DNA from: Pseudogemmobacter lacusdianii
Lineage (GTDB): Bacteria > Pseudomonadota > Alphaproteobacteria > Rhodobacterales > Rhodobacteraceae
DNA: 64,000 nucleotides
Assembly: GCF_030848395.1 (NCBI RefSeq)
Contig: NZ_JAVDBT010000006.1
Span: 124,001-188,000 of the forward strand
Direction: 5' to 3'
Shown: one piece after another, positions 2,340 through 57,372 of the stretch
Layout of the letters: each line of letters opens with the position of its first letter
Position numbering within the stretch: position 1 is the first letter of the stretch
The notes under the pieces: model-generated
The model's input: only the letters and a program-made list of their open reading frames with translations
The model's database searches: none
What the model was told of the DNA's origin: nothing
Program-made: the position numbers and the translations under genes

Positions 2340-2351
2340 TCTTCCCCGTCC

Positions 2352-39497: not shown

Positions 39498-41315
39498 CTA
39501 GCCGCCCCGCGCCTGATCTCGCCGTCCTGCGGCGAAAGCTTTGCTGAGGAAATCTTCACTGCGGCGCAGATAATCCTCCACATTGCTGCGGCGAAAAACG
39601 CCGTGACCTTCGTTATCGTAAAGCAAAACCTCATGCGGGATGCCAGCCTCGGTCAGTTCACGCACCGCGACATGGGTGTTTTCAGGGCCGACATTGGTGT
39701 CGGCCAGCCCATGCACGATCATCACATGGCCCCGGATATCTTCGATAAACCGCCCCGGTGAGGCATTGTCGTACTTCTCGGGCAACTCCTCGGGCGTGCC
39801 CCCCATCATCTCTTCGGAATAGGCCTTGCCATGCGGCATCTCGGTGGCGTGGTAGTCGATATCCAGCCGATACATGCCGCACATCGGGATCGCAGCCGTC
39901 ACCAGATCGGCAAAGCGGGTGATCGCGTACCAGCTGGAAAATCCGCCATAGCTGTTGCCCGCCAGGGCTACGGGGCCTGGAATGCCGGTGGCGCGGGCCG
40001 CCTCAAGCCCAGCGCGGATGTCGGTCTGCTCACGCCCCCCCCAACCATCGTCTTTCACCGCTTCGCGATGCGCAAAGCCGAACCCGGTGGAGCCGCGGTA
40101 ATTGGGATCAAGCACGGCAAAGCCACTGGCGAGCCAGAACTGGATCTTGGGGTTCATCCAATCCTCGGAATGCCAGGTTGGCCCGCCGTGAATATAGCCG
40201 ATCAACCCGCGCGGCGTGCCTTTGGGGCGGTAGAGCCAGCCCTGCATCGGGCGGCTATCTGCGGCGGTCCAGCGGAAATCCTCTGGAGCAATGCCCGCAT
40301 GCGCGGCGGGATTGGGCGCGCGCGCGATCACCCGGCAGCTGCCATCCGCCGCGACGGCCACCAGCTCATGCGGGGCATCGGCGTCATAGGCCTCGGCCAG
40401 CCAGCCGCCATTCGGCAAAGCGGCATGAGGCAAAAGGCTGCGGCGGCCAGAGCGATTGGGCAGCGGGGCAATCGAGCGCCCCTGCACCAAAGCGGCACGG
40501 GTATGGCTTTGCTCATGGTGGATGCAAAGGAAAGCCGCCCCTGTCCCCGCAAGGCAATCATGCGGGAAAAGCGCGGGCTCCGCGGCGATCCACTCCATCT
40601 CGCCCGAGGAAAGCGTCAAAATGCCAAGCCGGTCCTGCCCCTCGACATCCGCGACCACCGCGATCCGGTCGTCATCGATCCACGTCCCACGGGCGTTGTT
40701 CGTGGGGCCAAGGTTCAGGACCTCCGAATGTCCCGCACCAGCGGCCGTCATCACCCAAAGCTGAGAGCCTCCGGGCGCGCGATCATGGCGGTGCCAAAGG
40801 ATAAGCTCCCTGCTCGGCGAGAATTTCGGCCCCACCCCAAGCGGCCCGTCGCTGCGCCCGAGGCAACTGCGCGTCCCGGTCCTGATGTCTTGCCACCAGA
40901 TACAGCAGCCTTGCGTGACCTCATCCGTCTCATAGTCGAAATCTGCGGCGAAGATGATGCCCGTCTCATCGCGTGTGAAGGAGCCCCCCGTAAGGTAGTG
41001 GCGATCCTGCGCCGGGGTCAGCGGCTGCAGATGGTTCAGCCTGCGATCCAGAAGCAAGAGCTGGTCCTGATCGCTGCCGAACCGCGACTGTGCCAGGATC
41101 AACTGGTTGCCGTTAGAGCTCACATCGCGGATTTGGTAATGATCCGTGCCTTGGGTCAACTGCTGCGGCGGAGCGGATCCATCCAAGGGCACGCACCAAA
41201 CGTTCTCCGTCTCGGAAAGCCCAGCCCAGCACCAAAATGCCCATTTACCATCGCCGCTGGCATGGATGTTCGTCATCTGCGGCAGTTCGGACCAGAGCTT
41301 GGCGAGATCAGTCAT
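39498..41315 (-). CDS. S9 family (prolyl oligopeptidase/acylaminoacyl-peptidase) peptidase
   Basis: 605 residues. An N-terminal beta-propeller-like region (about 1-340, repeated SGxxxx/DRIAVVAD-type blades) precedes an alpha/beta-hydrolase domain. The nucleophile is in GNSYGGFSSWY (about residue 450), the Asp in HGLADTNV and the His in DNEGHGVFRR. HGGPTW is the oxyanion-hole motif. No signal peptide is seen, so it is cytoplasmic and would cut imported peptides. It starts directly after the stop of the ABC ATPase gene, as the last gene of the peptide-importer operon. Confidence 0.93.
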   Translation of the reverse strand: MTDLAKLWSELPQMTNIHASGDGKWAFWCWAGLSETENVWCVPLDGSAPPQQLTQGTDHYQIRDVSSNGNQLILAQSRFGSDQDQLLLLDRRLNHLQPLTPAQDRHYLTGGSFTRDETGIIFAADFDYETDEVTQGCCIWWQDIRTGTRSCLGRSDGPLGVGPKFSPSRELILWHRHDRAPGGSQLWVMTAAGAGHSEVLNLGPTNNARGTWIDDDRIAVVADVEGQDRLGILTLSSGEMEWIAAEPALFPHDCLAGTGAAFLCIHHEQSHTRAALVQGRSIAPLPNRSGRRSLLPHAALPNGGWLAEAYDADAPHELVAVAADGSCRVIARAPNPAAHAGIAPEDFRWTAADSRPMQGWLYRPKGTPRGLIGYIHGGPTWHSEDWMNPKIQFWLASGFAVLDPNYRGSTGFGFAHREAVKDDGWGGREQTDIRAGLEAARATGIPGPVALAGNSYGGFSSWYAITRFADLVTAAIPMCGMYRLDIDYHATEMPHGKAYSEEMMGGTPEELPEKYDNASPGRFIEDIRGHVMIVHGLADTNVGPENTHVAVRELTEAGIPHEVLLYDNEGHGVFRRSNVEDYLRRSEDFLSKAFAAGRRDQARGG

Positions 41316-42287
41316 TCAGGCACCTTCAACGAAATGGCAGGCGACATGGCGCTCGGGCGCAACCTCGCGCAGCAGCGGCCGTGAGTTGTGGCACATCTCC
41401 GCGGCCAAGGGGCAGCGGGTGGCAAAGACGCAGCCTTTCGGCGGGTTCAAAACCGAAGGCAATTCGCCGGGCAAAGCCGTGCCGACACGGCCCTTTTCGC
41501 GCCTCGGATCAGGCTCGGGCACTGCATCCATCAACGCTTTGGAATAAGGATGCAGAGGGCGTGCGTAGAACTCAGAGCGCGGGGCCTTTTCAACCACCCG
41601 GCCCAGACACATCACCATCACCTCATGGCTGATGTGCCGCACCACGGCGAGGTTATGCGAAATGAAGACCAGCGCCAGACCCATGCTTTCTTGCAGGTCC
41701 ATCAAGAGGTTAATCACCTGCGCTTGGATTGACACATCCAAGGCCGAGACCGGCTCATCGCAGATGATCATCTTCGGGCGCCCCACAATGGCGCGGGCAA
41801 TCCCCACCCGTTGCGCTTGGCCACCCGACAGCTCATGCGGATAGCGGTCGGCGAAATCCGCCGAAAGACCGACCTGCTGCAATGCCTCAACCGCGCGGGC
41901 GCGGGCGGCGGCTTTGCTCAACTCAGGCTCAAATGTCGCAAGCGGCCGACTCACGATTTTGCCCAGCGTCATGCGTGGATCCAAAGCGGCGATCGGGTCT
42001 TGGAAGATGATCTGCATTTCAGACCGGCGGCGGCGCAGATTGGGAATCTTCGCCATATCCTGCCCCTGCCAGAACACCTGCCCCGCGCTAGAGGGGATAA
42101 GCTGCAACAAGGCCCGGCCAAGGGTAGATTTTCCGCAACCGGATTCGCCCACCACCCCCAACGTGCGGCCCGGCTGAAGGCTGAGCGAGACTTCATGCAC
42201 GATCGGCAAATGCCGAGGCGCGCCAAAGAGACCCGCGCCGGGAATCGTGTAGCCAACGCCAAGATTGCGCGCTTCCAGAAGGCTCAT
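41316..42287 (-). CDS. Peptide-type ABC transporter ATP-binding protein (OppF/DppF-like)
   Basis: 323 residues. Walker A GESGCGKSTLGRALL, the signature LSGGQAQRVGIARAI and Walker B MIICDEPVSALD are intact. The C-terminal oligopeptide extension (PYSKALMDAVPEPDP, then CVFATRCPLAAEMC with paired cysteines) places it in the OppF/DppF group. Its ATG overlaps the stop of the other ATPase gene (ATGA). The TGA of this gene is followed at once by the ATG of the S9 peptidase. Confidence 0.93.
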   Translation of the reverse strand: MSLLEARNLGVGYTIPGAGLFGAPRHLPIVHEVSLSLQPGRTLGVVGESGCGKSTLGRALLQLIPSSAGQVFWQGQDMAKIPNLRRRRSEMQIIFQDPIAALDPRMTLGKIVSRPLATFEPELSKAAARARAVEALQQVGLSADFADRYPHELSGGQAQRVGIARAIVGRPKMIICDEPVSALDVSIQAQVINLLMDLQESMGLALVFISHNLAVVRHISHEVMVMCLGRVVEKAPRSEFYARPLHPYSKALMDAVPEPDPRREKGRVGTALPGELPSVLNPPKGCVFATRCPLAAEMCHNSRPLLREVAPERHVACHFVEGA

Positions 42288-43279
42288 GCTGGGGCTCCGG
42301 TCAAATGGCAGGCGGTGCGGCGGCTGGGTTCAAGGCCTGCCACCCCGCGCAAGGTGGGGCGGGCGGTGGTGCATATCGGCAGGCGCACTTCGCAGCGGGC
42401 AACGAAGGGGCAGCCCGCGACCTCGCGACCGGCCGAGCGCGGCGTGCCGGGGATGGTGCCCAGCCGCGGCGTCAGCTCGGTCTCCAGCCGAGGCATCGCC
42501 GCCAAAAGGCCCTTGGTATAGGGATGCGACGGCGTATCGAAGAGCGCCTCGGCTTGCGCCTCTTCCATCACGCGGCCACCGTACAGCACCATGACCCGGT
42601 CACAAAGCCGCGCCACCACGCCCAAATCATGGGTGACAAGGATAATGGCTGTGCCAGTCTCACGACCAAGTTCCGCCATCAAATCCAGTACTTGCGCTTG
42701 GATGGTCACGTCCAAGGCCGTGGTCGGCTCATCGGCCAGCAAAAGCTTTGGCCGCGCCAACAGCGCCATCGCGATCATCACGCGCTGCCGCATCCCGCCC
42801 GAAAACTCATGCGGATAGCGCCGCGCGCGGCTGGCGGCATCGGGGATGCGCACGCGATCAAGCATCCGCACCGCCTCGGCCTTGGCGGCATCTTTCGACA
42901 TGCCTTGATGCACGATCAACCCCTCGGCCAGCTGATCGCCAACCCGCATAAAGGGGTTCAAGCTGGTCATCGGATCTTGGAAGATCATCGAGATTTCAGA
43001 CCCGCGCACCCGGTCTAGCAGGCGCGGTGAGAGCGTGAAGAGATCTTGGCCGTCAAAACAGGCCTCGCCCCGCGCCTCACCGTTTGAGGCGAGAAGCCCC
43101 ATCAAGGCGTAAAGGATCTGGCTTTTCCCCGAGCCGCTCTCGCCGACGATCCCCAGCACCTCACCGGGGGCGAGGTCGAGGTCGACGCTGTCAACGGCCA
43201 CGGTGCGCCCACCCTCCATGCGAAAGCGGACCGAGAGGTCGCGGAGTGAGAGCAGCGGTTCGGGGTTTGATTGGGTCAT
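42284..43279 (-). CDS. Peptide-type ABC transporter ATP-binding protein (OppD/DppD-like)
   Basis: 331 residues. Walker A GESGSGKSQILYALM (Gln replaces the usual Thr after GKS), signature FSGGMRQRVMIAMAL and Walker B LLADEPTTALDVTI. The C-terminal PYTKGLLAAMPRLE and CPFVARCEV are typical of OppD/DppD. The ATG at 43279 lies four bases after the permease stop. An in-frame ATG at 43291 would overlap that stop and cannot be excluded. Its partner ATPase follows with a four-base overlap. Confidence 0.93.
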   Translation of the reverse strand: MTQSNPEPLLSLRDLSVRFRMEGGRTVAVDSVDLDLAPGEVLGIVGESGSGKSQILYALMGLLASNGEARGEACFDGQDLFTLSPRLLDRVRGSEISMIFQDPMTSLNPFMRVGDQLAEGLIVHQGMSKDAAKAEAVRMLDRVRIPDAASRARRYPHEFSGGMRQRVMIAMALLARPKLLLADEPTTALDVTIQAQVLDLMAELGRETGTAIILVTHDLGVVARLCDRVMVLYGGRVMEEAQAEALFDTPSHPYTKGLLAAMPRLETELTPRLGTIPGTPRSAGREVAGCPFVARCEVRLPICTTARPTLRGVAGLEPSRRTACHLTGAPA

Positions 43280-43283
43280 GCGA

Positions 43284-44174
43284 TCAACGGTCATTGGGGT
43301 CAAAGGCATCGCGCAGCCCATCGGCGATGAAGTTCAGGCAAAAGAGCACGGTGGCCAGAAGCCCGCCGGGCAATAGGAGAAGCCGCAGATCGGTGCTCAT
43401 CGCCGAGGTGCCAACTTGGATCAGGTTGCCCCAGCTCGCCTGCGGTTCCTTCACACCGATGCCAAGGAAGGACAGGAAGCTTTCCGACAAGATCACCTCG
43501 GGCACCAAAAGACTGCCGTAGACGATCACCACCGAGACACAGTTCGGCACAATATGTTGCAGCACGATGCGCCCGCCGGTCATCCCCCCTGCGCGGGCGG
43601 CCTGGATGAACTCGCGCTGCGCCAGACTTTGGGCTTGGGCGCGAACGATCACGGCGGGGGTGAGCCAAAGGGTGAAGACGATGGCGGCGAACAACGAGAC
43701 CGTGCCGCCGCCGAAGAGAAGGCTCAGGAGGATCACAAGGATCACATAAGGAAAGCCGTAAAGCACCTCGACCAGCCGCATCATGAAGCCGTCGAGCCGC
43801 CCGCCGACATAACCCGCCGCCGCACCGTACAGGACGCCAATGCCACCCGCGACCAAAGCGCCAAGGAAACCGATGGTCAGCGAGACTTGCCCCCCCTCAA
43901 GCACGCGGATGAAAAGATCGCGGCCATAGTCATCGGTGCCAAAGGGGTGGATCGAGAAGAGGTTCACCGGCGCGCCAATGTTGTCGAAATCGGCATCCTC
44001 CCCGGTGAAGGGGAAGAACATCGGGCCAAAGAAGCACATCAACACGATCAGCGTCAGCAGATAGACCGAAGCCATCGCCAACCGGTTCTTGCGAAACCTC
44101 CGGAATTGCAGCCGAAGCGTCGAAGCTGGCTCTGCCGTTGGCGCGGCGAAGGGGGGGGAGATGTCGCTAGGCAT
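43284..44174 (-). CDS. Peptide-type ABC transporter permease (OppC/DppC-like)
   Basis: 296 residues with about six membrane helices. The first helix MASVYLLTLIVLMCFFGPMF follows a long cytoplasmic head. The EAA loop is FIQAARAGGMTGGRIVLQHI, which docks on the ATPase, and LGIGVKEPQASWGNLI is typical of OppC. The start at 44174 (MPSDISPPF) overlaps the preceding permease stop by eight bases. Confidence 0.92.
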   Translation of the reverse strand: MPSDISPPFAAPTAEPASTLRLQFRRFRKNRLAMASVYLLTLIVLMCFFGPMFFPFTGEDADFDNIGAPVNLFSIHPFGTDDYGRDLFIRVLEGGQVSLTIGFLGALVAGGIGVLYGAAAGYVGGRLDGFMMRLVEVLYGFPYVILVILLSLLFGGGTVSLFAAIVFTLWLTPAVIVRAQAQSLAQREFIQAARAGGMTGGRIVLQHIVPNCVSVVIVYGSLLVPEVILSESFLSFLGIGVKEPQASWGNLIQVGTSAMSTDLRLLLLPGGLLATVLFCLNFIADGLRDAFDPNDR

Positions 44175-45087
44175 GGCGCAACCTCGGGTCCATCCAGGCA
44201 CGCAAGACATCGGTGCCGATGTTGAAAAGAATGACGATGCCGCCGTAGAGAAGCGTGATCCCGGTCACGAGCGGATAGTCGCGGTTCAAAGCCGCATCGA
44301 CAAAGTGCCGCCCGATGCCGGGCAGAGCAAAGACCGTCTCGATCAACACCGAGCCGGTGATGATCGCCGCCGTGGCGGGGCCAAGATAGGCCACCACCGG
44401 CAGCAAAGCTCCTTTAAGCGTATGTTTCAGCAACACCCTTCGCCCGCCGATCCCCTTAGCGCGGGCAGTGCGGACGTAGTTTTCACGCATCGTCTCGATC
44501 ATCGACGTGCGGGTGAGGCGGCTGATATAGGCGATATTGGGCAAGGCCAGCACCAGTACGGGCAAGACCCAAGATTTCCACCCTGCCCCCATGCCGCCCA
44601 CTGGCAGCCAGCCCAAATGCAGCGCGAAATAGGCCTGCGCCACCGGACCGATCACGAAGATCGGAATGGCGATGCCGATCACGCCGATCGTACCTGCAAC
44701 GTAATCCGTCATCCCATTGCGCCGCAAAGCGCCAAGGATGCCCAGCGCGATGCCGACGAAGGTCGCCACCACCATCGCCCAAAAGCCGATGGTCAGCGAA
44801 TAGGGCAGGCCCGAGGCGATCAGGTCGTTGACGCTATAGTCGCGAAACCGGGTCGAGGGGCCAAGGTCGAAATGCAGCAAGCGCCAGACGAAGCGGCCAA
44901 ACTGCTGGATCACCGGCTCATCAAGATGAAAGGCCGCCTCGATATTGGCCTGGACTTCCTTGCTGATCTTGCGATTGCGCGAGAAAGGGCCGCCGGGGGC
45001 CAACCGCATGACGAAAAACGTCAAGGTGACCAAGGCCGCAAGCGTCAGCGCGCCATTCCATAACCGCTTGCCGATAAAGCGTAACAT
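44167..45087 (-). CDS. Peptide-type ABC transporter permease (OppB/DppB-like)
   Basis: 306 residues with about six membrane helices. The N-terminal helix MLRFIGKRLWNGALTLAALV is the OppB/DppB start, and the EAA loop ENYVRTARAKGIGGRRVLLK and ITGSVLIETVFALPGIGRHF are diagnostic. I chose the ATG at 45087 because the longer reading to 45246 would run into the binding-protein gene. A GC-rich stem-loop occupies the gap upstream. Confidence 0.93.
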   Translation of the reverse strand: MLRFIGKRLWNGALTLAALVTLTFFVMRLAPGGPFSRNRKISKEVQANIEAAFHLDEPVIQQFGRFVWRLLHFDLGPSTRFRDYSVNDLIASGLPYSLTIGFWAMVVATFVGIALGILGALRRNGMTDYVAGTIGVIGIAIPIFVIGPVAQAYFALHLGWLPVGGMGAGWKSWVLPVLVLALPNIAYISRLTRTSMIETMRENYVRTARAKGIGGRRVLLKHTLKGALLPVVAYLGPATAAIITGSVLIETVFALPGIGRHFVDAALNRDYPLVTGITLLYGGIVILFNIGTDVLRAWMDPRLRHA

Positions 45088-45107
45088 ACAATGTTCCTGC
45101 CTAAGTA

Positions 45108-45138
45108 GGGCGGCCCCGATAATACCAAGGGGCCGCCC
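45108..45138 (-). other. Intercistronic stem-loop after the peptide-binding protein gene
   Basis: GGGCGGCCCC pairs perfectly with GGGGCCGCCC across an 11-base loop, 14 bases past the binding-protein stop. No U-run follows, so it is more likely a 3'-end-protecting or partially terminating stem that raises binding-protein levels over the permeases. Confidence 0.7.
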
Positions 45139-45151
45139 GCCAATCGGTTGG

Positions 45152-46744
45152 TTATTCCAGACGCAGATACTGGCTGTTGTAATAACCGGTGGCCGAGGGG
45201 ATCCAGCCATTGACCTTGGTGCTGACCAAAGCGCGCATCGGCTCAACCGCGATCGGGGCCAGGGTCATATCGTCGAGCAGGATCTTCTCGGCCTTCGCAA
45301 GTTCAACATCACGACTGGCCTTGTCAGCCTTGGTGCCTGCCACATCCATCGCCGCGTCATATTCGGGGCTGACCCAGTTGTAGCCGGGCTCGGCCGAGGG
45401 GCGCATGTAGGACAAGAAGGTCTCGGCCCCGGCGAAATCGCCGATCAGACCATCCGAGAAGACATCCCAATTGGTGGTGTAGAACTCATCGAGCCAAGCC
45501 TTGCGCTCCATGCCGCGGATGTCGGTCTCGACCCCCAGCACCTGTTTCCACATCAGCGCCACCCCTTGCGCGATGCGCATGCGGTCTTCGGCCACAGTGG
45601 TCACAACGTTGATCTTCAAGGGATTGTCGGGACCAAAGCCCGCCGCCGCCATCAACTCTTTCGCTTTGGCCTCACGCTCTTCCTGGCTCAGCTCAAAGCC
45701 CGGCATCTGCGGGCCGTTATATTCAGGATCCACGCCCCCCGCGAAAGCATAAGAGGGTGTTGCACCGCCCTTGACGATCTTCTCTTGCAAAACCTCACGG
45801 TTGATTGCCCAAGCCAAAGCGGTGCGGACATTGATGTCTTGGAACTCGGGCTTCGTCAGGTTGAAGCTGTAGAACGAGACATAGGTCGAGGGCGCGATCA
45901 TCACCTGATCCGGGATCTCGGCCTTCAGCGCCTCGATTTGGTTCACCGGGATATCATAGGTGATGTCCAGCTCACCGGCTTGGAAACGCTTCAGCTCGGT
46001 CGCGACATCTTCGGTGACGTAATACTTCACCTTCTCGATGCTAACATTGGCCGCGTCCCAGTAATTGGGATTCTTTTCCAAAAGGATATGGCTTTGCGGC
46101 ACGACTTCCTTGATCGCATAGGCGCCGTTCGTGACCACTTTGGTCGGATCGCCAAAGGCCGCGGTGCCGCTGGCTTCAAGGCTCGGGCTATGGACTGGCG
46201 ACATCTGGAAAGCGCCCATCAGATACAGCAGATGCGGCGCGGGATTGTCCAAAGTGATCACAACCGTGCGATCATCGGGCGCGGTGACGCCAAGGGTCGA
46301 GACATCCGTGGTCTCGCCATTGGCCAAAGCCGCGGCCCCGGTGATGCTGACCGTGGAATAGAAGTAATAACCCTTCTCCGAAATCGTATCAGGGTTCAGC
46401 GTGCGCGAGACGGCATTGACGAAATCTTGCGCCACCAGCGGCTCGCCATTCGACCATTTCAAGCCTTCGCGCAGATGAAAGGTATGGGTCAAACCATCTT
46501 CAGAGCTTTCCCAACGCTCAGCCGCGCCGGGCACGATCGTGCCACCGGGACCGAAGTTGATCAGCCCCTCATAGGCATCCATCAAGATCCAGCCGGTCGC
46601 GCCGTCAAAGACGACATGCGGGTCCAGCGTCGACCATTCCGAGCCCATGCCGCGATCCAAAACCCCGTCCGCCATCGCCGCCCCGCCCAAGCCAAAGGAC
46701 AGCGCCGCGCTGGCAAGTAACAGGCCAATTCCCTTCATCTTCAT
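45152..46744 (-). CDS. Peptide-type ABC transporter substrate-binding protein (SBP_bac_5)
   Basis: 530 residues with a signal peptide (GLLLASAALSFGLGGAAMA, cut near residue 25), so periplasmic. Family 5 extracellular solute-binding protein: LDPHVVFDGATGWILMDAYE, WSNGEPLVAQDFVNAVSRTL (LTAxDV-like) and VTNGAYAIKEVVPQSHILLE are characteristic of OppA/DppA-type proteins. It selects the substrate of the importer encoded downstream. Preceded by the deacylase gene with a 39-base gap. Confidence 0.93.
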   Translation of the reverse strand: MKMKGIGLLLASAALSFGLGGAAMADGVLDRGMGSEWSTLDPHVVFDGATGWILMDAYEGLINFGPGGTIVPGAAERWESSEDGLTHTFHLREGLKWSNGEPLVAQDFVNAVSRTLNPDTISEKGYYFYSTVSITGAAALANGETTDVSTLGVTAPDDRTVVITLDNPAPHLLYLMGAFQMSPVHSPSLEASGTAAFGDPTKVVTNGAYAIKEVVPQSHILLEKNPNYWDAANVSIEKVKYYVTEDVATELKRFQAGELDITYDIPVNQIEALKAEIPDQVMIAPSTYVSFYSFNLTKPEFQDINVRTALAWAINREVLQEKIVKGGATPSYAFAGGVDPEYNGPQMPGFELSQEEREAKAKELMAAAGFGPDNPLKINVVTTVAEDRMRIAQGVALMWKQVLGVETDIRGMERKAWLDEFYTTNWDVFSDGLIGDFAGAETFLSYMRPSAEPGYNWVSPEYDAAMDVAGTKADKASRDVELAKAEKILLDDMTLAPIAVEPMRALVSTKVNGWIPSATGYYNSQYLRLE

Positions 46745-46783: not shown

Positions 46784-47893
46784 TTAGTTTGAAAGTAGGT
46801 CCCCACTTCGCACCGGGGTCTCCCCGGCGACATGCGCAAGCCCCTGCCCTTTCAGGCAGAAGGGGTGTAAATCACGCCGGAAGAAAAGCCCGGCATTGGG
46901 GGCAAGAAGCGGCAAGCGCCGCCGGGTCAAAGGGTCGCTGACATGGCCAAGGATCTGGTCCTTCTCGACCATTGCTCCCGGCGTCAGCGCCCAAGTCACA
47001 ATGCCGCCCTGCGCGGCAAAAACCTCACCCGCGCCATTGAGCGGAGTTTGCAGGGCGGGCGGATGGGCGGGCTTTGGCGCGCCGGAGATCACACCCGCCG
47101 CACCCAAAAACGCCATCATATTCAACGCATCTTGCTGCGCCTGCGCATCCGAGACATCGCGCTGACCGCGATATTCCAGTGTGGTGGCGAAGGTCGGCTG
47201 CGCAATCGGATGGTCCGGGAAGCGCTTTTGCAGCGCCCGCCAAGGCGCGGTATGCGCCTCATCAAAGGCATTGCCGCCAGAGGTATCTTCCATCAGCGCA
47301 AGCACGGCCCCGGTGCAGCGGCCCAAAGCCTCGGTCAGCGCGGGGTGCGAGGAGGAGGTGTAGAAATGCATCACCGCCTCATGGTCGCAGTGCAGATCCA
47401 GCACCAGATCAGCATCATGCGACCATTGCAAAAGCCGCTGACGCAGCTCTTCATTCTCGGATTTCGGGGCCAGTGCCTTTAGGGCTTTGGCAAAAGCTGC
47501 GCGGATGATCTTGGTGTTCTGGCCTGCATCTTGGGTCAACTGACCTTCCAGCGCATCGCCCGCCAAAGCGGCAAGATCGAAATGGCCACGATTATAATTC
47601 TGCATGGTTTCAAGGTCTTGCCGCCCCTGCGGCTTGCCTTGCAGCCATTGCGTCAGCCCGATCGGATTGGCGAATGGCACGACCGAGATCTGCCCGGTGA
47701 TCCGCCCCTCAGCCTCGGCCGTATCCAAAAGTTCCATCAGATGCCAAAGGAGGATCGCCCCCGGCATTTCATCGGCATGTAAAGCGGCTTGCAGATAGAC
47801 CTTGGGGCCGCCCCCCGCATCCCAGAAATGACGGGTCAGCTGGCGGCGGCTGCCGGGGCTTACGGGCGTCAGATCTAGGATCTCAGTTTTCAT
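46784..47893 (-). CDS. M14-type deacylase (succinylglutamate desuccinylase/aspartoacylase family)
   Basis: 369 residues. The zinc site reads LHADEMPGAIL (H-x-x-E, about residue 39) and DLHCDHEAVMHFYT (His, about 166). A later Glu in TTLEYRGQRDVSD matches the catalytic Glu. The C-terminal beta domain (GAGEVFAAQGGIVTWAL) is typical of the AstE/AspA branch. The family removes acyl groups from amino acids or opens amide bonds. Lying between a TetR regulator and a peptide importer, it probably processes the imported compound. Confidence 0.88.
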   Translation of the reverse strand: MKTEILDLTPVSPGSRRQLTRHFWDAGGGPKVYLQAALHADEMPGAILLWHLMELLDTAEAEGRITGQISVVPFANPIGLTQWLQGKPQGRQDLETMQNYNRGHFDLAALAGDALEGQLTQDAGQNTKIIRAAFAKALKALAPKSENEELRQRLLQWSHDADLVLDLHCDHEAVMHFYTSSSHPALTEALGRCTGAVLALMEDTSGGNAFDEAHTAPWRALQKRFPDHPIAQPTFATTLEYRGQRDVSDAQAQQDALNMMAFLGAAGVISGAPKPAHPPALQTPLNGAGEVFAAQGGIVTWALTPGAMVEKDQILGHVSDPLTRRRLPLLAPNAGLFFRRDLHPFCLKGQGLAHVAGETPVRSGDLLSN

Positions 47894-47941
47894 GGCAACC
47901 TCACCGGGTCAGCAATGATCTTTGCAGGTTTTTCAAGTCGA

Positions 47942-48556
47942 TCAACTCTCATCCGCATCCTCCAGCTTGCCCAGCAATGGCTCTAGCAAGCTTTGCGCCG
48001 CCGCCAGTGCACGCGCGGAATCAAACCCTTCGGGATCGATGCATTGTTCAAGCCAAAAGCCATCCGCCAAAGCGATCACCGAGGCAGCCATTGCGGCCGC
48101 ATCCACCTTCAACCCATGCGCAAAGCAATGCTCTTCAATCGCCGCCTCGACCGCCGCTTTGTAGCTGCCGTAATTGCGTTGATGGGCCGCGCGCAGTTTG
48201 GGGTTCACTGCAAACTCCCCCCAAAGCGCCAACCAAATCCGAAGGTTTTCAACGCTGTAGCTTTCAACGCCGAAAATGCGCTTTAACATTGAGGGAAATT
48301 TCAGCGGCGGGTCCGAGTTCACCTCTTGCAGCATCGGCTCATAAGCTGCCTCGTAAACCGCCGCCAAGAGCCCGTCTTTTGAACCGAAATGATGCGCGAT
48401 CAAACCGCGCGAGGCCTCGGCCTTTTTGCAGATATTGTCGATGGTGAAGGCGGTGATCCCGCCCTCCCCAAGACATTCAAGTCCGGCCTTCACCAGCATC
48501 GCGGCCCGCTCTTCGGCGGCGTAACGGCGGAATTTTGGAGGCTCAGATATGGTCAC
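47942..48556 (-). CDS. TetR/AcrR-family regulator (BetI-like)
   Basis: 204 residues, probably from a GTG at 48556. The N-terminal helix-turn-helix is KAGLECLGEGGITAFTIDNI, then KKAEASRGLIAHHFGSKDGL, which is BetI-like, and the C-terminal ligand domain contains WLALWGEFAVNPKLRAAHQR, also BetI-like. The GTG overlaps the end of the CocE-type gene by 14 bases. An ATG at 48595 is possible but would overlap 53 bases. It likely regulates this operon and perhaps the divergent oxidoreductase-methyltransferase pair. Confidence 0.88.
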   Translation of the reverse strand: MTISEPPKFRRYAAEERAAMLVKAGLECLGEGGITAFTIDNICKKAEASRGLIAHHFGSKDGLLAAVYEAAYEPMLQEVNSDPPLKFPSMLKRIFGVESYSVENLRIWLALWGEFAVNPKLRAAHQRNYGSYKAAVEAAIEEHCFAHGLKVDAAAMAASVIALADGFWLEQCIDPEGFDSARALAAAQSLLEPLLGKLEDADES

Positions 48557-50555
48557 GCGGGATCGCCCTTTCCCAAGACCGGCGGCGAATCTCACTGCCG
48601 TTTTCGCTGATCACCGTCTCGGCGGTCAGATGGAAATGCGTCAGATCGCAGGTCATTCTGGCGCGGCTTTCATGGGTGAATGTGCCGTCCTTGCGGATCT
48701 GATCAACCCTGTAAGCCAATGACATCTCAGCCGATAACGGGTCTCCCTCAGTGATCTGATAGCGGGCAAAGCCGTCGCTGCGCTGGCGAATGCCAATCTC
48801 GGGGAACTCGTGATCATAGGTCCAGCGCGGGAAATCGACCGTGATGCGGCCTTCAAGCAGGTCCCGGGTGATCCGGCGCGGACTGGCGGGGGCGACCGGA
48901 TGGCTGATCATCGGTGATTCCGGCGCGGCCTCAGGCGGATCGAAGGCGCGCAGATGCGCATCCTCGGCGCGCGGCGGGCGCACCGGCAGGTGCAGCACGG
49001 TGGCACCGGTGTCGATGGTCAGCGTCACCGCCTCGGGCGATGGCCAAGCGATCGGCCAATAGTTGGACGAGAGCGACAGGCCGATGCGATGGCCCGCCGC
49101 AAAGGCATGGGCGATATCGTCAAGCTCGACCTCAACAGTGATTTCCTGCCCCGGAACAAGGGCTTGCGGATTTCCGTGGCCCTGATGATGCGTCAGGTTC
49201 ATCAGCCCCAACGTCACCCGAGTTGAGGCGCCGTTCGGGGCCACATCGTTCAGCCGCGCCGCGACCAAAGCCAACGGCTTATCGCTGGAGACTCGCAGGG
49301 TAACCCTCGGCGCGCCAAGGATTTCCAGCCGCTCGGGCAAGGGCTCTGACAGCCAGACCAGTGAGCCCGCATCATCCTCGCGCTGGTCCACCGGCCAATC
49401 GGCATCCGCGCCGTAGCGGCCAATCTCGCCCGCCGCCATCCCCACCCAAAGCGGCGAAGAGATCTGCGCTTTGCCCGGAGCTGCTGCCGCGTTTAAGCCC
49501 GCGCCAACCGGATGATACTGCCGCCAATCAATGCGCGGTGAGGGCCATTGATCCTCGCCCACCCAGCGGCCGGGCCGCTCAGTATAGCAAGGTTTCGGCG
49601 GCAGCCCCTCTTGCATCCAAACCCGCAAAGCGGGTTCGTCCATGATGCCGGTGTCACGCCCCTTCATCCAATGATCGCACCAGCGCAGCACTTCTTGCAG
49701 CCAGCCGATCGCCGGTTCCACCGTAACATCATGCGGATAACTATGCGCCCAAGGGCCAATCAGCCCGCGCACCTTATCCGCGCCAAGCCCCGCCAGAAGC
49801 CGCGGCACCGCTTCCGAGTAATTGTCCGCCCAGCCCGAAACCGCATAGACCGGGATCTGGATTGCCGAGAAATCCTCACAAACCGAGCCCTGCTGCCAGT
49901 ATTCATCACGCCGCTGATGATCGAGCCAAATAAGGCCCCAAGGATCATTCGCTTCGATCCGATCCAGCCAGATTTGCCGCCAAGCGTCGCCGTGCAAAGC
50001 CGGATCCGGCGGCAGGTCCATGCCGGCCACCATCGTGCCCGACCAATCAAGATTGTCCTTGGACAGACAACCACCGATGTAATGCACGTCAGTGGCATAG
50101 CGGTCATCGGTGAAGCCCACCGCGATCACCGTTTTCAGCGCCGGAGGCTGACGGGCCGCGATCTGCAAGCCGTTGAAACCGCCCCAAGATATCCCGATCA
50201 TCGCAACCTGACCGTCGCACCAATCCTGCGCCGCGATCCAAGCGATCAGATCGACGCCATCCAACTGTTCTTGCAGCGAATATTCGTCGTAAAGCAGCCC
50301 CTCGCTCTCGCCACAGCCGCGGATATCCACGCGGATACAGGCATAGCCATGCCCGGCCAGATACATATGCAGCCCCTGATCGCGCGAACGGGTGCCGTCA
50401 TGCTTGCGGTAGGGCAGATATTCCAAGATCGCCGGATGCTTGCCGGAAGCCGGACGCCAGATCTTGGCCGCCAGCCGGGTGCCATCGGGCAAAGGGATGA
50501 AGAGATTCTCCACCACGTCCACCTGATGCGGAAAATCTGTGCGGATCTCGGCCAC
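48543..50555 (-). CDS. CocE/NonD-type S15 hydrolase
   Basis: 670 residues with a GTG start at 50555. The alpha/beta-hydrolase core has the nucleophile in MIGISWGGFNGL (about residue 123), RGCGESEGLL nearby, an Asp in SGWADNYSEA and a His in GPWAHSYPHD. A C-terminal jelly-roll domain with LRVSSDKPLALVAARL follows. The group includes cocaine esterase, X-Pro dipeptidyl peptidase and alpha-amino-acid ester hydrolases. No signal peptide. It is first in the nine-gene operon. Confidence 0.9.
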   Translation of the reverse strand: MAEIRTDFPHQVDVVENLFIPLPDGTRLAAKIWRPASGKHPAILEYLPYRKHDGTRSRDQGLHMYLAGHGYACIRVDIRGCGESEGLLYDEYSLQEQLDGVDLIAWIAAQDWCDGQVAMIGISWGGFNGLQIAARQPPALKTVIAVGFTDDRYATDVHYIGGCLSKDNLDWSGTMVAGMDLPPDPALHGDAWRQIWLDRIEANDPWGLIWLDHQRRDEYWQQGSVCEDFSAIQIPVYAVSGWADNYSEAVPRLLAGLGADKVRGLIGPWAHSYPHDVTVEPAIGWLQEVLRWCDHWMKGRDTGIMDEPALRVWMQEGLPPKPCYTERPGRWVGEDQWPSPRIDWRQYHPVGAGLNAAAAPGKAQISSPLWVGMAAGEIGRYGADADWPVDQREDDAGSLVWLSEPLPERLEILGAPRVTLRVSSDKPLALVAARLNDVAPNGASTRVTLGLMNLTHHQGHGNPQALVPGQEITVEVELDDIAHAFAAGHRIGLSLSSNYWPIAWPSPEAVTLTIDTGATVLHLPVRPPRAEDAHLRAFDPPEAAPESPMISHPVAPASPRRITRDLLEGRITVDFPRWTYDHEFPEIGIRQRSDGFARYQITEGDPLSAEMSLAYRVDQIRKDGTFTHESRARMTCDLTHFHLTAETVISENGSEIRRRSWERAIPRDHI

Positions 50556-50602
50556 CGGTCACCCCCTGCTACTGAACGACCATGCAACAAGGCGCGATCT
50601 TC

Positions 50603-50655
50603 TGTCAAACACTCATGCATGCTTGACCGATCGCGGAAGGCGCTCTTACTATACG
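50603..50655. promoter_or_regulatory. Divergent promoter-operator candidate between the hydrolase operon and the TMADH-like operon
   Basis: TTGACA on the minus strand (50603-50608) and TTGACC on the plus strand (50623-50628) lie back to back, forming the inverted repeat GTCAA-N14-TTGAC. On the plus strand TACTAT (50647) is 18 bases downstream, a fair -10. A -10 for the minus strand is not clear. A regulator bound between them would control both operons. Confidence 0.5.
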
Positions 50656-50676
50656 AATGTTCAGCAAGGAGTCACC

Positions 50677-52725
50677 ATGCCCCGGAATCCCCGCTACAAT
50701 ACCCTGTTCGAGCCGGTTCAAATTGGCCCGAAAGTCGCCCCAAACCGGTTCTTTCAGGTGCCGCATGCCAGCGGCATGACCAATGTCAGCCCGCGCGTGC
50801 GCGCTGCGTTTCGCGGCATGAAGGCCGAGGGCGGTTGGGGCGTGGTTTGCACCGGGGCCTGTTCGGTGGATCCTTCGTCTGACGACAGCCCGTTTCCGAA
50901 TGCCACGCTCTGGGACAAGGCCGACATTAAGGCGCATAGGTTAATGACTGATGCAGTCCACGCGCATGGCGCTTTGGCGGGGGTAGAGCTCTGGCACGGC
51001 GGGGCGGCCGCGATGAACCGCACCACCCGCTTCGCGCCTTTGTCGCCCTCGGGCGTGCCTTGGATGGCGACCCATGTCGGCTTCATGACCTCGGCCCGCC
51101 CTAAGGTCATGGATGCGCAGGATATTCGCGATCTCATCCGCTGGCATGCCGAAGCGGCAAAGCGCTCTGAGGAGGCCGGGTTTGACATCCTCTATGTCTA
51201 TTCCGGCATGGGCTACCTGCCCTATCAATTCCTTTTGTCGGATTATAACCACCGCACAGATGCCTATGGCGGCTCGGTGCAAAACCGGGTTCGGTTAACG
51301 GAAGAGCTGATTGACGCTGTGCGCGATGCCACCGGCGGGCGCTGTGCGGTGGCCTTGCGGATCTCGATGCAAGAGCTGCGGTCGCGGCCTTCTGAGGTCG
51401 CGGAATCCGAGGCGCATGAGGTGATGTCCTACCTCAAAGACGCGCCGGATCTGTTCGATGTGAAGATGGATTATTCGGCCTTTGACTGCGCGCCAAGCCG
51501 CTATTCGGCCGAAGGAAGCCATGAGCAGACGATTGAATTCATGAAGAAAGTCACCACGAAGCCCGTGGTTGGCGTGGGGCGTTTCACCTCGCCCGATACG
51601 ATGGTGTCGATGGTGAAGCGCGGCGTTCTTGACCTGATCGGCGGCGCGCGGCCCTCGATCGCTGACCCCTTCCTGCCCGCCAAGATCAATGAGGGGCGCG
51701 AGGAGGATATTCGTGAATGTATCGGCTGCAACATCTGCATTTCCTCGTGGCATGACGGGGTTTGGGTGCGTTGCACGCAGAACCCGACGGTGGGCGAGGA
51801 ATATCGCCGGGGCTGGCATCCGGAGAAAGTTACAAAAGATTCAGCGGGTTCGGTGCTGGTGATCGGCGGCGGGCCGGCGGGGCTGGAGGCGGCGCTGACC
51901 TTGGCGCGGCGCGGCTTTGAGGTGAGCCTCGCCGAAGCGCGGCGCGAATTTGGTGGGCGGCTTTTGTGGGAAAGCAGCCTACCGGGGTTGCGGCAGTGGT
52001 TCCGGGTGGCAGATTATCGGCTGGGGCAGCTCGCAAAGCTGCCAAATGTCACGCTTTATCCCGAAAGCCCGCTGACGGCAGCAGAGGCTATGGAGTTTGG
52101 TGCAGACCACATCGTTGTGGCCACCGGCGCCGATTGGGACCGCGCGCTCTGCGGGCCGAATGAGATCCCCGAGGGGCGGCTTGAGGGGGCTGCGGTCTAT
52201 ACGCCCACCGATTTGGCCGCAGGGCGCATCCCGCAAGGCCCTGTTTTGGTGCATGATTTCGACAATTACTACATGGGCTCGGCCGTCAGTGAATGGCTTT
52301 CGGGCAAGGGGCTTGAGGTGACGCATGTCACCACGGCGGGCAATGCGGCGGCTTGGGGTTTCATGACCAATGAGCAACCGCAGGTGCATAAGTCCTTTGC
52401 CGCAAAAGGAATTACCCTGCGGACCGCAGAACGAGTGACCGGGTTTGACGGCGGGGTGGTGCGGCTGGCGCATATGCTCTCAGAGACGCCGTCTGAGGTT
52501 GCGGCGGCCTCGGTTGTGCTGGTCGGCACACGGGTTTCCCGCTCCAGTCTGGCCGAGGAATTGCGGGCCTTGGGGGCAATTTCGGTGCATCTTGCAGGGG
52601 ATGCATTTGCGCCCGGCGCCTTGGCACATGTGACCTATAGCGCGCATAAGACGGCACGGGAGATTTCCGCCAAGCCTTTGATCAAACGGGATTTCGCAAT
52701 CCCCAGCCTTGAGTTGCAAGCATGA
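50677..52725 (+). CDS. Trimethylamine dehydrogenase-like iron-sulfur flavoprotein (old yellow enzyme plus FAD/NAD-fold domains)
   Basis: 682 residues. The N-terminal TIM barrel binds FMN (about 1-330), four cysteines at 348, 351, 354 and 366 (CIGCNIC...RC) hold a 4Fe-4S cluster, and a C-terminal FAD-like domain begins VLVIGGGPAGLEAALTLARR. ARPSIADPFLPAKI and EEYRRGWHPEK strongly recall trimethylamine dehydrogenase and dimethylamine or N-methylproline demethylases. The residue aligning with the flavin-linked Cys30 of TMADH is Ala31, and that for Tyr60 is Ala61, so its substrate should differ. AAGGAG precedes the ATG. The methyltransferase gene overlaps its end by four bases. Confidence 0.9.
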   Translation: MPRNPRYNTLFEPVQIGPKVAPNRFFQVPHASGMTNVSPRVRAAFRGMKAEGGWGVVCTGACSVDPSSDDSPFPNATLWDKADIKAHRLMTDAVHAHGALAGVELWHGGAAAMNRTTRFAPLSPSGVPWMATHVGFMTSARPKVMDAQDIRDLIRWHAEAAKRSEEAGFDILYVYSGMGYLPYQFLLSDYNHRTDAYGGSVQNRVRLTEELIDAVRDATGGRCAVALRISMQELRSRPSEVAESEAHEVMSYLKDAPDLFDVKMDYSAFDCAPSRYSAEGSHEQTIEFMKKVTTKPVVGVGRFTSPDTMVSMVKRGVLDLIGGARPSIADPFLPAKINEGREEDIRECIGCNICISSWHDGVWVRCTQNPTVGEEYRRGWHPEKVTKDSAGSVLVIGGGPAGLEAALTLARRGFEVSLAEARREFGGRLLWESSLPGLRQWFRVADYRLGQLAKLPNVTLYPESPLTAAEAMEFGADHIVVATGADWDRALCGPNEIPEGRLEGAAVYTPTDLAAGRIPQGPVLVHDFDNYYMGSAVSEWLSGKGLEVTHVTTAGNAAAWGFMTNEQPQVHKSFAAKGITLRTAERVTGFDGGVVRLAHMLSETPSEVAAASVVLVGTRVSRSSLAEELRALGAISVHLAGDAFAPGALAHVTYSAHKTAREISAKPLIKRDFAIPSLELQA

Positions 52726-54230
52726 GCCGCCGCCCCGAACGCAGCCGCCAAGCGGCGGTGCAGCAACGCCCCTTTGGCCAAGTGCCGAGGCATATTGGCC
52801 CGGTGGAGGCGATCAGCGCCGATCAGGTTGAGGCGATCCATCAGGCCGCGCTGACCGTCCTGCGCGATACCGGCATGCGGGTGCTGGAGGATGGCGCGCG
52901 CGATCGCTTCCGTGACGCGGGGGGGAAGGTCGACGGACAGATGGTCCGTTTCGACCCAGAGATGGTGGAGGAACACCTTAAAACCGTGCCCGCGCGGTTT
53001 ACGCTGGCCGCCCGTAACCCATTGCACAATTTGACTTTAGGTGGCGCGGATACGGTTTTTGCCTCGGTCGGCGGGCCGGCCTATGTGATGGATCTTCAGC
53101 GCGGGCGGCGCGAAGGGACGCTCTCGGAGATGGAGGATTACCTGCGTTTGGTGCAGGTTTTGAACGTCATCCAGCAAGAGGGTGGCGGGCCGTTTGAGCC
53201 GATGGAATTGCCGGCGCATACGCGGCATCTCGACATCTATTCCTCGCAGATCCGGCTTCTGGATAAGAACTGGCAGACCCAGACTCTGGGCCGCCGCCGC
53301 ACGCTTGATGGGCTTGAGGCGGCCCAGCTTGGCATGGGGCAAAGCCTTGAATATATGGCAGAAAACCCCTGCCTTTTGGGCATCATCAACACCAATTCCC
53401 CGCTGCAATTGGACATCCCGATGTGCGAGGGACTGATCACAATGGCCGAGCATGGGCAGGTCAATGTGATCACGCCTTTCACCCTGTCGGGGGCGATGGC
53501 GCCGGTGTCTTTGGCGGGGGCTTTGGTCCTGCAACATGCCGAGGCTTTGGCGGGGATTATCCTGACGCAAATCGTGCGGCCCGGGGTGCCGGTGATGTAT
53601 GGCGGCTTCACCTCAAACGTCGATATGCTCTCGGGCTCGCCTGCTTTTGGCACTCCGGAATATTCCATCTGTTCAATGGCTTCTGGGCAGCTTGCCCGTC
53701 GGATTGGGGTGCCGTTCCGGTCTTCCAACGTGACTTCGGCCAATGCGGTGGATGCGCAGGCGGCTTATGAGAGCATGATGTCGCTTTGGGGCGTGATGCT
53801 GGGCGGCGCGCATCTCGTCAACCATGCGGCGGGCTGGATGCATGGCGGGCTAACCGCCAGTTTTGAAAAACTTATTCTCGACGCCGAGATGCTGCAAATG
53901 CTGCAAGCTATGCAGCAGCCCGTCTCGACCGATCCGAGCGAATTGGCGCTTCAGGCGATTGCCGAGGTTGGCCCCGGCGGGCATTTCTTCGGGACTTCTC
54001 ATACACTTGAGCGCTACCGCGAGGCCTTCCATAAGCCGCTGATCTCGGACTGGACGGCGCATGAGGCTTGGAAGGCGGGCGGCAGTTTGGGAACGGTGGA
54101 GCGTGCCTCGGCGCTTTGGCCAAAGCTTCTGGCGGAATACCAAGAGCCGAAATTGCCTGAGGATCGGGCGGAAGAATTGGCCGCTTGGGTGACAAAACGC
54201 AAAGCCGAAGGTGGCGCGCCGATGAACTGA
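52722..54230 (+). CDS. MttB-family (COG5598) methyltransferase without pyrrolysine
   Basis: 502 residues with no in-frame stop, so no pyrrolysine. The TIM-barrel MttB fold shows FASVGGPAYVMDLQRGRREG, LGIINTNSPLQLD, MYGGFTSNVDMLSGSPAFG and GPGGHFFGTSHTLE. Family members demethylate quaternary amines such as glycine betaine, proline betaine or carnitine and pass the methyl to a corrinoid protein. No corrinoid-binding gene is seen in this window, so the acceptor is unknown. ATGA overlap with the upstream flavoprotein shows the two are made together. Confidence 0.9.
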   Translation: MSRRPERSRQAAVQQRPFGQVPRHIGPVEAISADQVEAIHQAALTVLRDTGMRVLEDGARDRFRDAGGKVDGQMVRFDPEMVEEHLKTVPARFTLAARNPLHNLTLGGADTVFASVGGPAYVMDLQRGRREGTLSEMEDYLRLVQVLNVIQQEGGGPFEPMELPAHTRHLDIYSSQIRLLDKNWQTQTLGRRRTLDGLEAAQLGMGQSLEYMAENPCLLGIINTNSPLQLDIPMCEGLITMAEHGQVNVITPFTLSGAMAPVSLAGALVLQHAEALAGIILTQIVRPGVPVMYGGFTSNVDMLSGSPAFGTPEYSICSMASGQLARRIGVPFRSSNVTSANAVDAQAAYESMMSLWGVMLGGAHLVNHAAGWMHGGLTASFEKLILDAEMLQMLQAMQQPVSTDPSELALQAIAEVGPGGHFFGTSHTLERYREAFHKPLISDWTAHEAWKAGGSLGTVERASALWPKLLAEYQEPKLPEDRAEELAAWVTKRKAEGGAPMN

Positions 54231-54359: not shown

Positions 54360-55199
54360 TTATTTGCCGCCGCCCGCCGTCTCGGACCCGCCGCGGGTCA
54401 GGTAATAGGCGATCAGGATCGGTAGGAAGGTCGCGGCAAAGACCACAATGGCGACCACATTGGTCACTGGGCGCTGCCTTGGCCGGATCAGCTCATTATA
54501 CATCCAGATCGGCAGGGTGCTTTGCTGGCCTGCGGTGAAGGTGGTGACGATCACCTCATCAAAGCTGAGCGCGAAGGCGAGCATCCCCCCGGCCAAGAGC
54601 GCCGAGCCGAGGTTGGGCAGCAGCACATAGCGGAAGGTCTGGAAGGCATTGGCGCCAAGATCGGCCGAGGCCTCCATGATGCCACCGGACAGGCGGCGCA
54701 TCCGGGCGACGGCGTTGTTATAGACGATGACGATGCAGAAGGTGGCATGGCCAAGGATGATCGTCCAAGTGCTGAACGGGATCTCCATCACGCCGAAGGC
54801 CGAGCGCAGCGACATGCCGGTGATGACGCCGGGCAGAGCGATGGGCAGGATGACCAGAAGCGAGAGTTGCTCGCGGCCGAAGAATTTGGCGCGCGACATG
54901 GCGGCGGCGACGAGCGTGCCGAGGATGATGGCAAGGATCGTGGCGACGCTGGCAACCTTGAGCGAGAGCCACAAGGGCGGCCAGATATCGGCGCGGTTCC
55001 AAGCGACGCCGAACCACTGGGTGGTGAGGCCGGGCGGCGGGAATTGATAGGTCTTCTCCTCGGTCGTGAAGGCATAAAGGAAGATCAGCAGGATCGGCAG
55101 GTGCAGGAACAAAAGCCCCGCGAAGGCGGCGGCTTTGAGGCCAAGCGAGGCGCGCGGGCCAGAGAGTCTGGGGTCAGAGAGGCTGAGGTCAGAGCGCAT
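54360..55199 (-). CDS. Polyamine-type ABC transporter permease (PotC-like)
   Basis: 279 residues with about six membrane helices. The first helix LLFLHLPILLIFLYAFTTEE and motif EASADLGANAFQTFRYVLLPNLGSALLAG (EAA loop) are typical of PotC/PotI permeases. ITGMSLRSAFGV and FSFDEVIVTTFTAG-like segments follow the family. Its start overlaps the PotB-like gene end by 11 bases. Last gene of the importer operon, converging on the MttB gene. Confidence 0.9.
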   Translation of the reverse strand: MRSDLSLSDPRLSGPRASLGLKAAAFAGLLFLHLPILLIFLYAFTTEEKTYQFPPPGLTTQWFGVAWNRADIWPPLWLSLKVASVATILAIILGTLVAAAMSRAKFFGREQLSLLVILPIALPGVITGMSLRSAFGVMEIPFSTWTIILGHATFCIVIVYNNAVARMRRLSGGIMEASADLGANAFQTFRYVLLPNLGSALLAGGMLAFALSFDEVIVTTFTAGQQSTLPIWMYNELIRPRQRPVTNVVAIVVFAATFLPILIAYYLTRGGSETAGGGK

Positions 55200-56124: not shown

Positions 56125-56150
56125 GCGTGGGTCCTCTGTGTTCGACCGCC

Positions 56151-56266: not shown

Positions 56267-56299
56267 TCACAGCAACGCGAGTCCGGGGCGCAGCGATGG

Positions 56300-57298: not shown

Positions 57299-57333
57299 CT
57301 GCGGGTCCGGGGATTGGGGCCTTGGCCGAAGGG

Positions 57334-57360: not shown

Positions 57361-57372
57361 AAGCTCAAGCGA

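Follow-up and report, generated by a model that had tools for sequence, protein, structure and literature searches.

Among the closest described relatives of the system treated here is that of Ruegeria pomeroyi (PMC12478193), where glycine betaine demethylation by MtgB, MtgC, and MtgD is linked to a split methionine synthase, a non-pyrrolysine (non-Pyl) MttB protein is encoded without a neighboring corrinoid gene, and MtgC, DUF1638, MtgD-like, and RamA genes lie elsewhere in the genome. In that work, mutants show MtgC and MtgD to be required for both methionine synthesis and growth on glycine betaine. Such substrates raise the abundance of RamA, DUF1638, and two MttB-family proteins, all of them assigned by homology, with RamA and DUF1638 as predicted helpers; up to seven pfam06253 genes occur per genome, for which other methylated substrates are suggested. 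Here, we describe a gene pair with a similar setting in a 64,000-nucleotide stretch of Pseudogemmobacter lacusdianii (contig NZ_JAVDBT010000006.1, positions 124,001 to 188,000; hereafter the window), in which a gene for a flavoprotein related to trimethylamine dehydrogenase (TMADH) is followed by a non-Pyl MttB gene. Unlike the Ruegeria protein, the window MttB belongs to another subfamily (Y94 replaced by Gly, a Lys by Asn, and His at position 374 versus Glu in most relatives), and it is paired with a TMADH-like enzyme, a CocE-type hydrolase, and an Opp-type importer.

Two further routes bear comparison. Rieske oxygenases such as carnitine monooxygenase CntA and stachydrine demethylase act on quaternary ammonium compounds, and Rieske genes lie near relatives of the window flavoprotein; those clusters are oxygen-dependent, whereas the window flavoprotein stands beside MttB. 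The rhizobial stachydrine route, which combines a Rieske enzyme with StcD, likewise consists of a two-step N-demethylation with the flavoprotein second; however, StcD is 25.5% identical to the window flavoprotein and the first step in the window would fall to MttB. Cocaine esterase CocE, of the S15 family, is among the nearest solved relatives of the window hydrolase, yet is distant. Although each enzyme family is already known, we recognized no description of their combination in our searches of open-licence papers.

Taken together, our observations favor, with a probability of about 0.58, a divergent catabolic cassette serving a quaternary amine that is imported as an ester- or amide/peptide-like conjugate. 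An Opp-type importer would take up the conjugate, and CocE, with an AstE-type deacylase and perhaps an S9 hydrolase, would free a carboxylate-bearing N-trimethyl or N,N-dimethyl ammonium compound. MttB would move one methyl to the cobalamin carried by MtgC, of which the genome has one free-standing copy; RamA/DUF1638 would recharge this protein, and MtgD would pass its methyl on to tetrahydrofolate. The TMADH-like flavoprotein would oxidatively take a second methyl (as formaldehyde) or cleave the C–N bond, with electrons passing, by analogy, via its 4Fe-4S cluster to an electron-transferring flavoprotein. A TetR regulator would repress both arms through a palindrome. We infer these reactions, their order, the electron acceptor, the regulation, and the substrate class. 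Gene families, gene packing, conservation, hub gene presence, residue patterns, and the palindrome are directly observed, as laid out below. The pair consists of:

50677..52725, + strand, TMADH-family flavoprotein, class I: flavin mononucleotide (FMN) barrel, 4Fe-4S cysteines, C-terminal nucleotide-binding domain (PF00724 and PF07992; solved relatives; residues)
52722..54230, + strand, non-Pyl MttB-superfamily methyltransferase (PF06253, 609 bits; alignment with MtgB 2qne/9yce; residues)

In the open reading frame (ORF) translations of the window, the two genes encode 682 and 502 amino acids, and the MttB start lies within the flavoprotein stop. The four-base ATGA overlap (52722–52725) reported in an earlier, sequence-only reading of this DNA is thus real, and a four-base overlap recurs in 8 of 14 relatives according to mechanical ORF lists. 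An alternative GTG further upstream would extend the flavoprotein ORF; we take the ATG at 50677 as the start because AGGAG precedes it and relatives align with the N-terminus that begins there. The families named in that reading, TMADH-like and non-Pyl MttB, agree with Pfam profiles, solved relatives, and the absence of an in-frame stop. The flavoprotein matches Oxidored_FMN (PF00724) and Pyr_redox_2 (PF07992), among solved structures it is closest to histamine dehydrogenase 3k30, 6l6j, and TMADH 1djq, and with an FMN barrel, four Fe–S cysteines, and a C-terminal nucleotide domain it is TMADH-like in the wide sense. The MTTB profile PF06253 covers residues 3–498 of the window MttB at 609 bits, against a cut-off of 25, placing it in the superfamily; solved relatives include 4yyc and MtgB 2qne/9yce. 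A Pyl-type trimethylamine methyltransferase was rejected: there is no in-frame stop, the score to TIGR02369 is 288 bits against a 525-bit cut-off, and Val337 stands at the Pyl position.

The pair is conserved. Among 295 genomes sampled from the family, in which neighbor coordinates were compared by eye, MttB at 63–100% identity occurs in 15, the own genome included. A TMADH-like gene lies directly upstream on the same strand in all 15, which represent 15 genera of the sample; 12 of these flavoproteins are 70–100% identical to that of the window and three are 49–50% identical. By contrast, a TMADH-like match within ~1.5 kb accompanies 0 of 14 MttB homologues at 47–53% among the matches listed. 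This difference (15/15 at ≥63%, 0/14 at 47–53%) puts the adjacency far beyond what chance would give. When named genomes were scanned with an alignment of the 15 MttB, 516 relatives emerged, of which the best 80 define the loci studied here. The search for the adjacent pair and its neighbors that the sequence-only reading had proposed yielded a same-strand TMADH-like match upstream of MttB in 76/80 loci, with CocE (49/80) and OppA (46/80) as recurring neighbors. Four of the 76 matches are fragmentary (L108, L144, L148, L155), and two (L148, L158) are 1.6 kb distant. The MttB of L108 is the closest relative (85%); the best match to the flavoprotein there spans only 335 residues, which may reflect a broken gene or a faulty contig of a metagenome-assembled genome (MAG). 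L186 (CP059262.1), titled as an Exiguobacterium profundum MAG, carries a Rhodobacterales-type pair (66% MttB, 76% flavoprotein) and is probably mislabeled.

Outside the family, a class sample of 385 genomes contains eight, besides the own genome, with a 48–53% flavoprotein passing E 1e-195, and MttB adjoins it in six of the eight (divergently in G455); the pair is therefore not restricted to the family, yet rare. The sequence-only reading held that a rare and unconserved pair would speak against its proposal: the pair is indeed rare in the class sample, but conserved (15/15 and 76/80). In the own genome (3.8 Mb), one of 10 MttB-family genes stands beside a TMADH-like gene; two other TMADH-like genes (44–47%) are on contigs that have no MttB match, and another (29%) shares the contig of the pair at a distance of some 60 kb. 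MttB genes can thus be numerous in aerobic alphaproteobacteria.

Divergent from the pair, a left arm spans 39498–50555:

48543..50555, - strand, CocE/NonD (peptidase S15) hydrolase (PF02129 and PF08530)
47942..48595, - strand, BetI-like TetR regulator (PF00440 and PF13977; BetI model score below its cut-off)
46784..47893, - strand, AstE/AspA-type deacylase (PF24827; solved relative 8ein), in 4/80 loci
45152..46744, - strand, OppA-type solute-binding protein (SBP_bac_5; nearest solved are murein-peptide and oligopeptide binding proteins)
44167..45246, - strand, Opp-type permease (PF00528)
43284..44210, - strand, Opp-type permease with OppC_N (PF00528 and PF12911)
42284..43321, - strand, Opp-type ATPase (PF00005 and PF08352 oligo_HPY)
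41316..42287, - strand, Opp-type ATPase (PF00005 and PF08352 oligo_HPY)
39498..41315, - strand, S9 prolyl-oligopeptidase-family hydrolase (PF00326), abutting the last transporter gene

Counts of CocE, OppA, AstE, BKACE, and other context genes use identity floors of 33–50% chosen by us and half-length matches; 51 of the 80 loci have full flanks of at least 21 kb. CocE is present in 38 of these 51, and one of three distinct OppA types likewise in 38. Over all 80 loci, the OppA types divide into a Fuscovulum type (33), a third type (9), and the window type (4), with no locus holding two; window-type OppA and AstE occur in the same four loci. Partial matches to the S9 gene, at 64–66%, appear in three loci. 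On a plasmid of Fuscovulum ytuae, nine consecutive same-strand genes encode the flavoprotein, MttB, CocE, five transporter proteins, and TetR, and single-strand runs of this kind also occur at other loci; a Mesorhizobium plasmid carries the same gene set arranged as two convergent arms. Records of carrier bacteria name sediment, pond, reactor, and soil as environments. The presence of this arm, with its CocE, Opp, TetR, and deacylase genes, suggests that the imported substrate is a conjugate and not a free small betaine. The sequence-only reading, which proposed a possible module for catabolism of N-methyl compounds, overlooked this arm; its pair and its distant corrinoid partner are supported, while the importer it suggested is not.

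Variation in gene content is considerable. A BKACE gene occurs in 11/80 loci, of which nine also hold HDAC-like and M19 genes, eight an SDR gene, and two CocE. In L135, L147, L150, L158, L161, L166, L169, L181, and L183, the BKACE, HDAC-like, and M19 dipeptidase genes lie beside MttB and a class II flavoprotein (defined below); SDR accompanies them in eight of these nine loci, GNAT in four, and the third Opp-type binding protein in 8/9. Since loci without the flavoprotein and cassettes without CocE/Opp exist, the parts of the cassette are separable.

The residues of MttB bear on the alternative that the pair demethylates a free small betaine of the glycine, proline, beta-alanine betaine, or carnitine type, with CocE/Opp as a co-located peptide-use unit. 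In PMC6855144, the MtgB residues modelled for betaine are Y94, N199, R309, and H345. They correspond to Gly117, Asn223, Arg333, and His368 of the window MttB (9yce numbering is one higher), and Asn, Arg, and His are kept in 80/80 MttB. Position Y94 is Gly in all 80 despite the kept Asn, Arg, and His, so we rejected identity with MtgB, and glycine betaine as substrate is not supported as judged by residues. His374 is present in 78/80 MttB, where 17/20 outside relatives and 7/8 own paralogues in the tree have Glu. The betaine Arg is present in 7/8 and the His in 8/8 of these paralogues; because most paralogues have both, Arg and His mark betaine-type MttB in general. We consider a free betaine unlikely: the three kept residues, the BCCT and Rieske genes near flavoprotein relatives, and cassettes lacking CocE/Opp fit it, but most full-flank loci have CocE and an Opp importer, of three distinct OppA types, alongside the pair, in some loci these genes share strand runs and palindromes with it, and the flavoprotein lies outside the StcD N-methylproline demethylase line.

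The flavoprotein has the full domain plan of the trimethylamine/dimethylamine/histamine dehydrogenase family, with four Fe–S cysteines, Tyr169, Asp267, Arg222, and Trp105, but lacks Cys30 for covalent FMN. Of the TMADH residues Cys30, Tyr60, His172, Trp264, Trp355, and Asp267, the window protein keeps only Trp355 and Asp267, and trimethylamine dehydrogenase was rejected. Histamine dehydrogenase, which has an Asp at the Trp355 position, as seen in the alignment for 3k30, was rejected as well, since Trp and not Asp stands there in 40/40 class I rows. In the tree, the flavoproteins form two groups, each set apart by a branch, with a support of 100 (class I) and 89 (class II). Class I (40 rows, window included) has Ala in place of Cys30 (40) and Tyr60 (39), Met in place of His172 (40), and Trp355 (40), and is variable at 264. 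Class II (38 rows, of which 4–5 are gapped at some N-terminal sites) differs from TMADH in having Asn at 264 and 355 (38), and keeps Tyr60 and His172 wherever a letter is present. Tyr169, Arg222, and Asp267 are kept in both classes wherever a letter is present, and the four Fe–S cysteines in 40/40 and 38/38 rows; Cys at position 30 was observed in histamine dehydrogenase and two own paralogues.

Flavoprotein class changes at least six times on the MttB tree, even between Mesorhizobium L105 and L187, whose MttB are nearly identical, and these exchanges suggest that the two classes do one job. The trees were made by a quick method, show long branches among own paralogues, and left out flavoprotein matches ≤450 aa and MttB matches ≤380 aa; label II on the MttB tree denotes anything <60% identical to P0001, fragments included. 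An StcD/N-methylproline demethylase identity was rejected, the window flavoprotein being 25.5% identical to annotated stcD versus ~45% to ndpC.

Among flavoprotein relatives without an adjoining MttB, several have a Rieske oxygenase nearby. In G503, which has no MttB match, the flavoprotein gene is preceded, at a distance of 5 bases, by one for a full-length Rieske oxygenase; the best solved relative of this oxygenase is carnitine monooxygenase, and 3vca and 4qup (stachydrine-type) rank further down. In G457, a second TMADH-like gene, which has no MttB beside it, has a relative (46%) of the G503 Rieske and Pot-like transporter genes within 10 kb. A Rhizobium plasmid carries a class I flavoprotein (60%), CocE, Opp, and TetR; its Rieske sequence is in pieces with broken frames, and the stretch around the flavoprotein contains no match to MttB. 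A Parasedimentitalea plasmid has a flavoprotein relative with two annotated ring-hydroxylating oxygenases and an ATP-binding cassette (ABC) importer; in G441, a BCCT transporter lies two genes beyond the TMADH-like gene; and on Leisingera plasmid L198 (4463–8085), a choline-sulfatase gene (betC) directly precedes the TMADH-like gene, with Opp-like transporter genes and betB. These Rieske, BCCT, and betC/betB neighbors are single loci, not counts. They favor a quaternary amine as the start and the flavoprotein as the next step, lending support to the quaternary-to-tertiary-to-secondary route of the sequence-only reading. In L214, a CntA-like Rieske gene (3336–4607, - strand) lies directly upstream of a TMADH-like gene (1288–3330, - strand), together with Pot-like transporter genes.

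The reverse order, in which the flavoprotein acts first, or elsewhere on the molecule by splitting the C–N bond of an N-methyl side chain in the manner of 6-hydroxypseudooxynicotine oxidase, followed by MttB, appears improbable to us. The ~45% identity to annotated ndpC, which releases methylamine, and the departure of the class I pocket from TMADH would suit it, but the CntA-like Rieske just upstream of the flavoprotein in G503, where MttB has no match, fits a quaternary nitrogen being attacked first.

The sequence-only reading also proposed, as one of two options, that MttB works with a distant corrinoid partner, and the genome provides a candidate. Of three genes with B12-binding domains, two are of the methylmalonyl-CoA-mutase type and one is free-standing and MtgC-like, followed by DUF1638; one RamA-like gene and an MtgD-like gene, assigned by its pterin-binding domain only, are also present, unlinked to the pair. 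All four hub genes are thus in the genome, with MtgC outside MetH. Pterin domains occur in frames of 337 and 327 aa, none MetH-sized, so the genome has no MetH. The 64-kb window contains no MtgC match. MtgC matches were found in two of the 80 loci, both Frigidibacter (L125, 964–2599; L156, 930–2565), where mtgC and DUF1638 precede the flavoprotein gene by ~5–6 kb in the same orientation; for MtgD and RamA, the count of loci with a match is 0/80. RamA occurs in 15/15 pair genomes, which is uninformative given a base rate of 280/295 family members. Hub availability is therefore established for the genome; its association with this MttB is not. Ten MttB-family genes face one free-standing corrinoid protein in the 3.8-Mb genome, more than the up to seven given in the 2025 paper.

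That MttB is corrinoid-free, using another methyl acceptor or serving as a binding subunit for the flavoprotein, we regard as very unlikely. It would account for the lack of an MtgC match in 78/80 loci, L105, L106, L211–L220, and the window, for the excess of MttB genes over free corrinoid proteins, and for the Asn that in 80/80 MttB replaces the Lys common to MttB and MtgB four residues past the Pyl position. Against it, the genome encodes a hub like the one whose MtgC and MtgD Ruegeria needs for glycine betaine, and two unlinked MttB-family proteins are induced there (PMC12478193); mtgC and DUF1638 stand beside the cassette in the two Frigidibacter loci; and MttB occurs without the flavoprotein in four loci.

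A candidate operator emerged from comparison of upstream regions. A 5-mer palindrome, TGTTG-N10-CAACA, is present in 14/70 upstream regions, compared with a maximum of 3 in 20 mononucleotide shuffles. The 24-base palindrome CTTGTTGNAC-N5-TGCAACAAG occurs with ≤4 mismatches in 36/69 upstream regions, before both flavoprotein classes; such sites number 83 on both strands of the 1.47 Mb that make up the 80 loci, a figure in which palindromes may count twice. The inverted repeats of the window are uninformative by themselves, and the palindrome surfaced solely through the cross-locus comparison. The window has two copies:

50568..50591, no strand, candidate operator, 4 mismatches to CTTGTTGNAC-N5-TGCAACAAG
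50645..50668, no strand, weaker second copy with 5 mismatches, adjoining the flavoprotein start

Mesorhizobium has copies with one mismatch before both arms, and TetR would act through this palindrome.

Several observations weigh against the proposed conjugated-amine cassette. The flavoprotein match is missing in 4/80 loci (L143, L146, L174, L180), and because two of these have CocE and AstE, the flavoprotein is not always needed nearby; in the latter two, L174 and L180, the MttB gene and those for window-type CocE, AstE, and OppA point away from each other, and the S9 gene has partial matches. Tabrizicola-type loci have flavoprotein and MttB, most with TetR, but no CocE/Opp match. The modelled MtgB cage tyrosine is Gly in every MttB of the 80 loci, and since class I lacks the His172 and Tyr60 of TMADH, its chemistry may differ. 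Weak Rieske matches (27–33%) occur in 6/80 MttB-bearing loci, among them BKACE/M19-type loci and all six with M19, so MttB and Rieske are no strict alternatives. No MtgC, MtgD, or RamA match was found in 78/80 loci, and because hub genes are near-universal, their presence does not tie the hub to this MttB. The palindrome was not found within 5 mismatches in 32/69 upstream regions, nor within 4 in the F. ytuae cassette. Finally, the S15 and Opp families have broad substrates, which makes the argument for a conjugate indirect.

We tentatively extend the conjugated-amine cassette to a broader picture, at somewhat less than even odds: an alphaproteobacterial, sometimes plasmid-borne cassette for conjugated quaternary amines, built from an Opp importer, swappable hydrolases (CocE; AstE; HDAC-like and M19 with BKACE), MttB or Rieske, and two interchangeable flavoproteins. 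The first methyl would enter the B12 methionine-synthase hub with MttB as adaptor (in relatives, oxygen and a Rieske enzyme would serve), and the second would become formaldehyde through either TMADH-like flavoprotein; methylated-amine peptides could be an example of the substrate. In the open-licence literature we found only glycine betaine shown to feed this hub in aerobic alphaproteobacteria, and an orphan MttB subfamily now gains a gene context of importer, hydrolase, second demethylase, and regulator with candidate operator. This context makes the substrate searchable via binding-protein ligands or induction. If the model is true, uptake of conjugated methylated nitrogen would be linked to B12 and one-carbon metabolism.

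To the right, a Pot-type (polyamine) importer (54360–58593) converges on the pair. The suggestion in the sequence-only reading that it brings in the substrate finds no support: across the 80 loci, a threshold of E 1e-15 returns nothing for its binding protein, relaxing it to E 1e-8 gives a single weak hit (L157, 23%), and its permeases have weak matches (25–33%) in 3/80 and 5/80. Not being conserved, it was rejected as a partner. The L108 stretch ends just after MttB and is uninformative here; 10 kb are available on that side in L174, L180, and L185, whose SBP and AstE are of the window type. Pot-like importers do co-locate with TMADH-like and Rieske genes in G503 and G457. Beyond the Pot importer, the window holds an HPP transmembrane protein with CBS at 59239–60327 (- strand).

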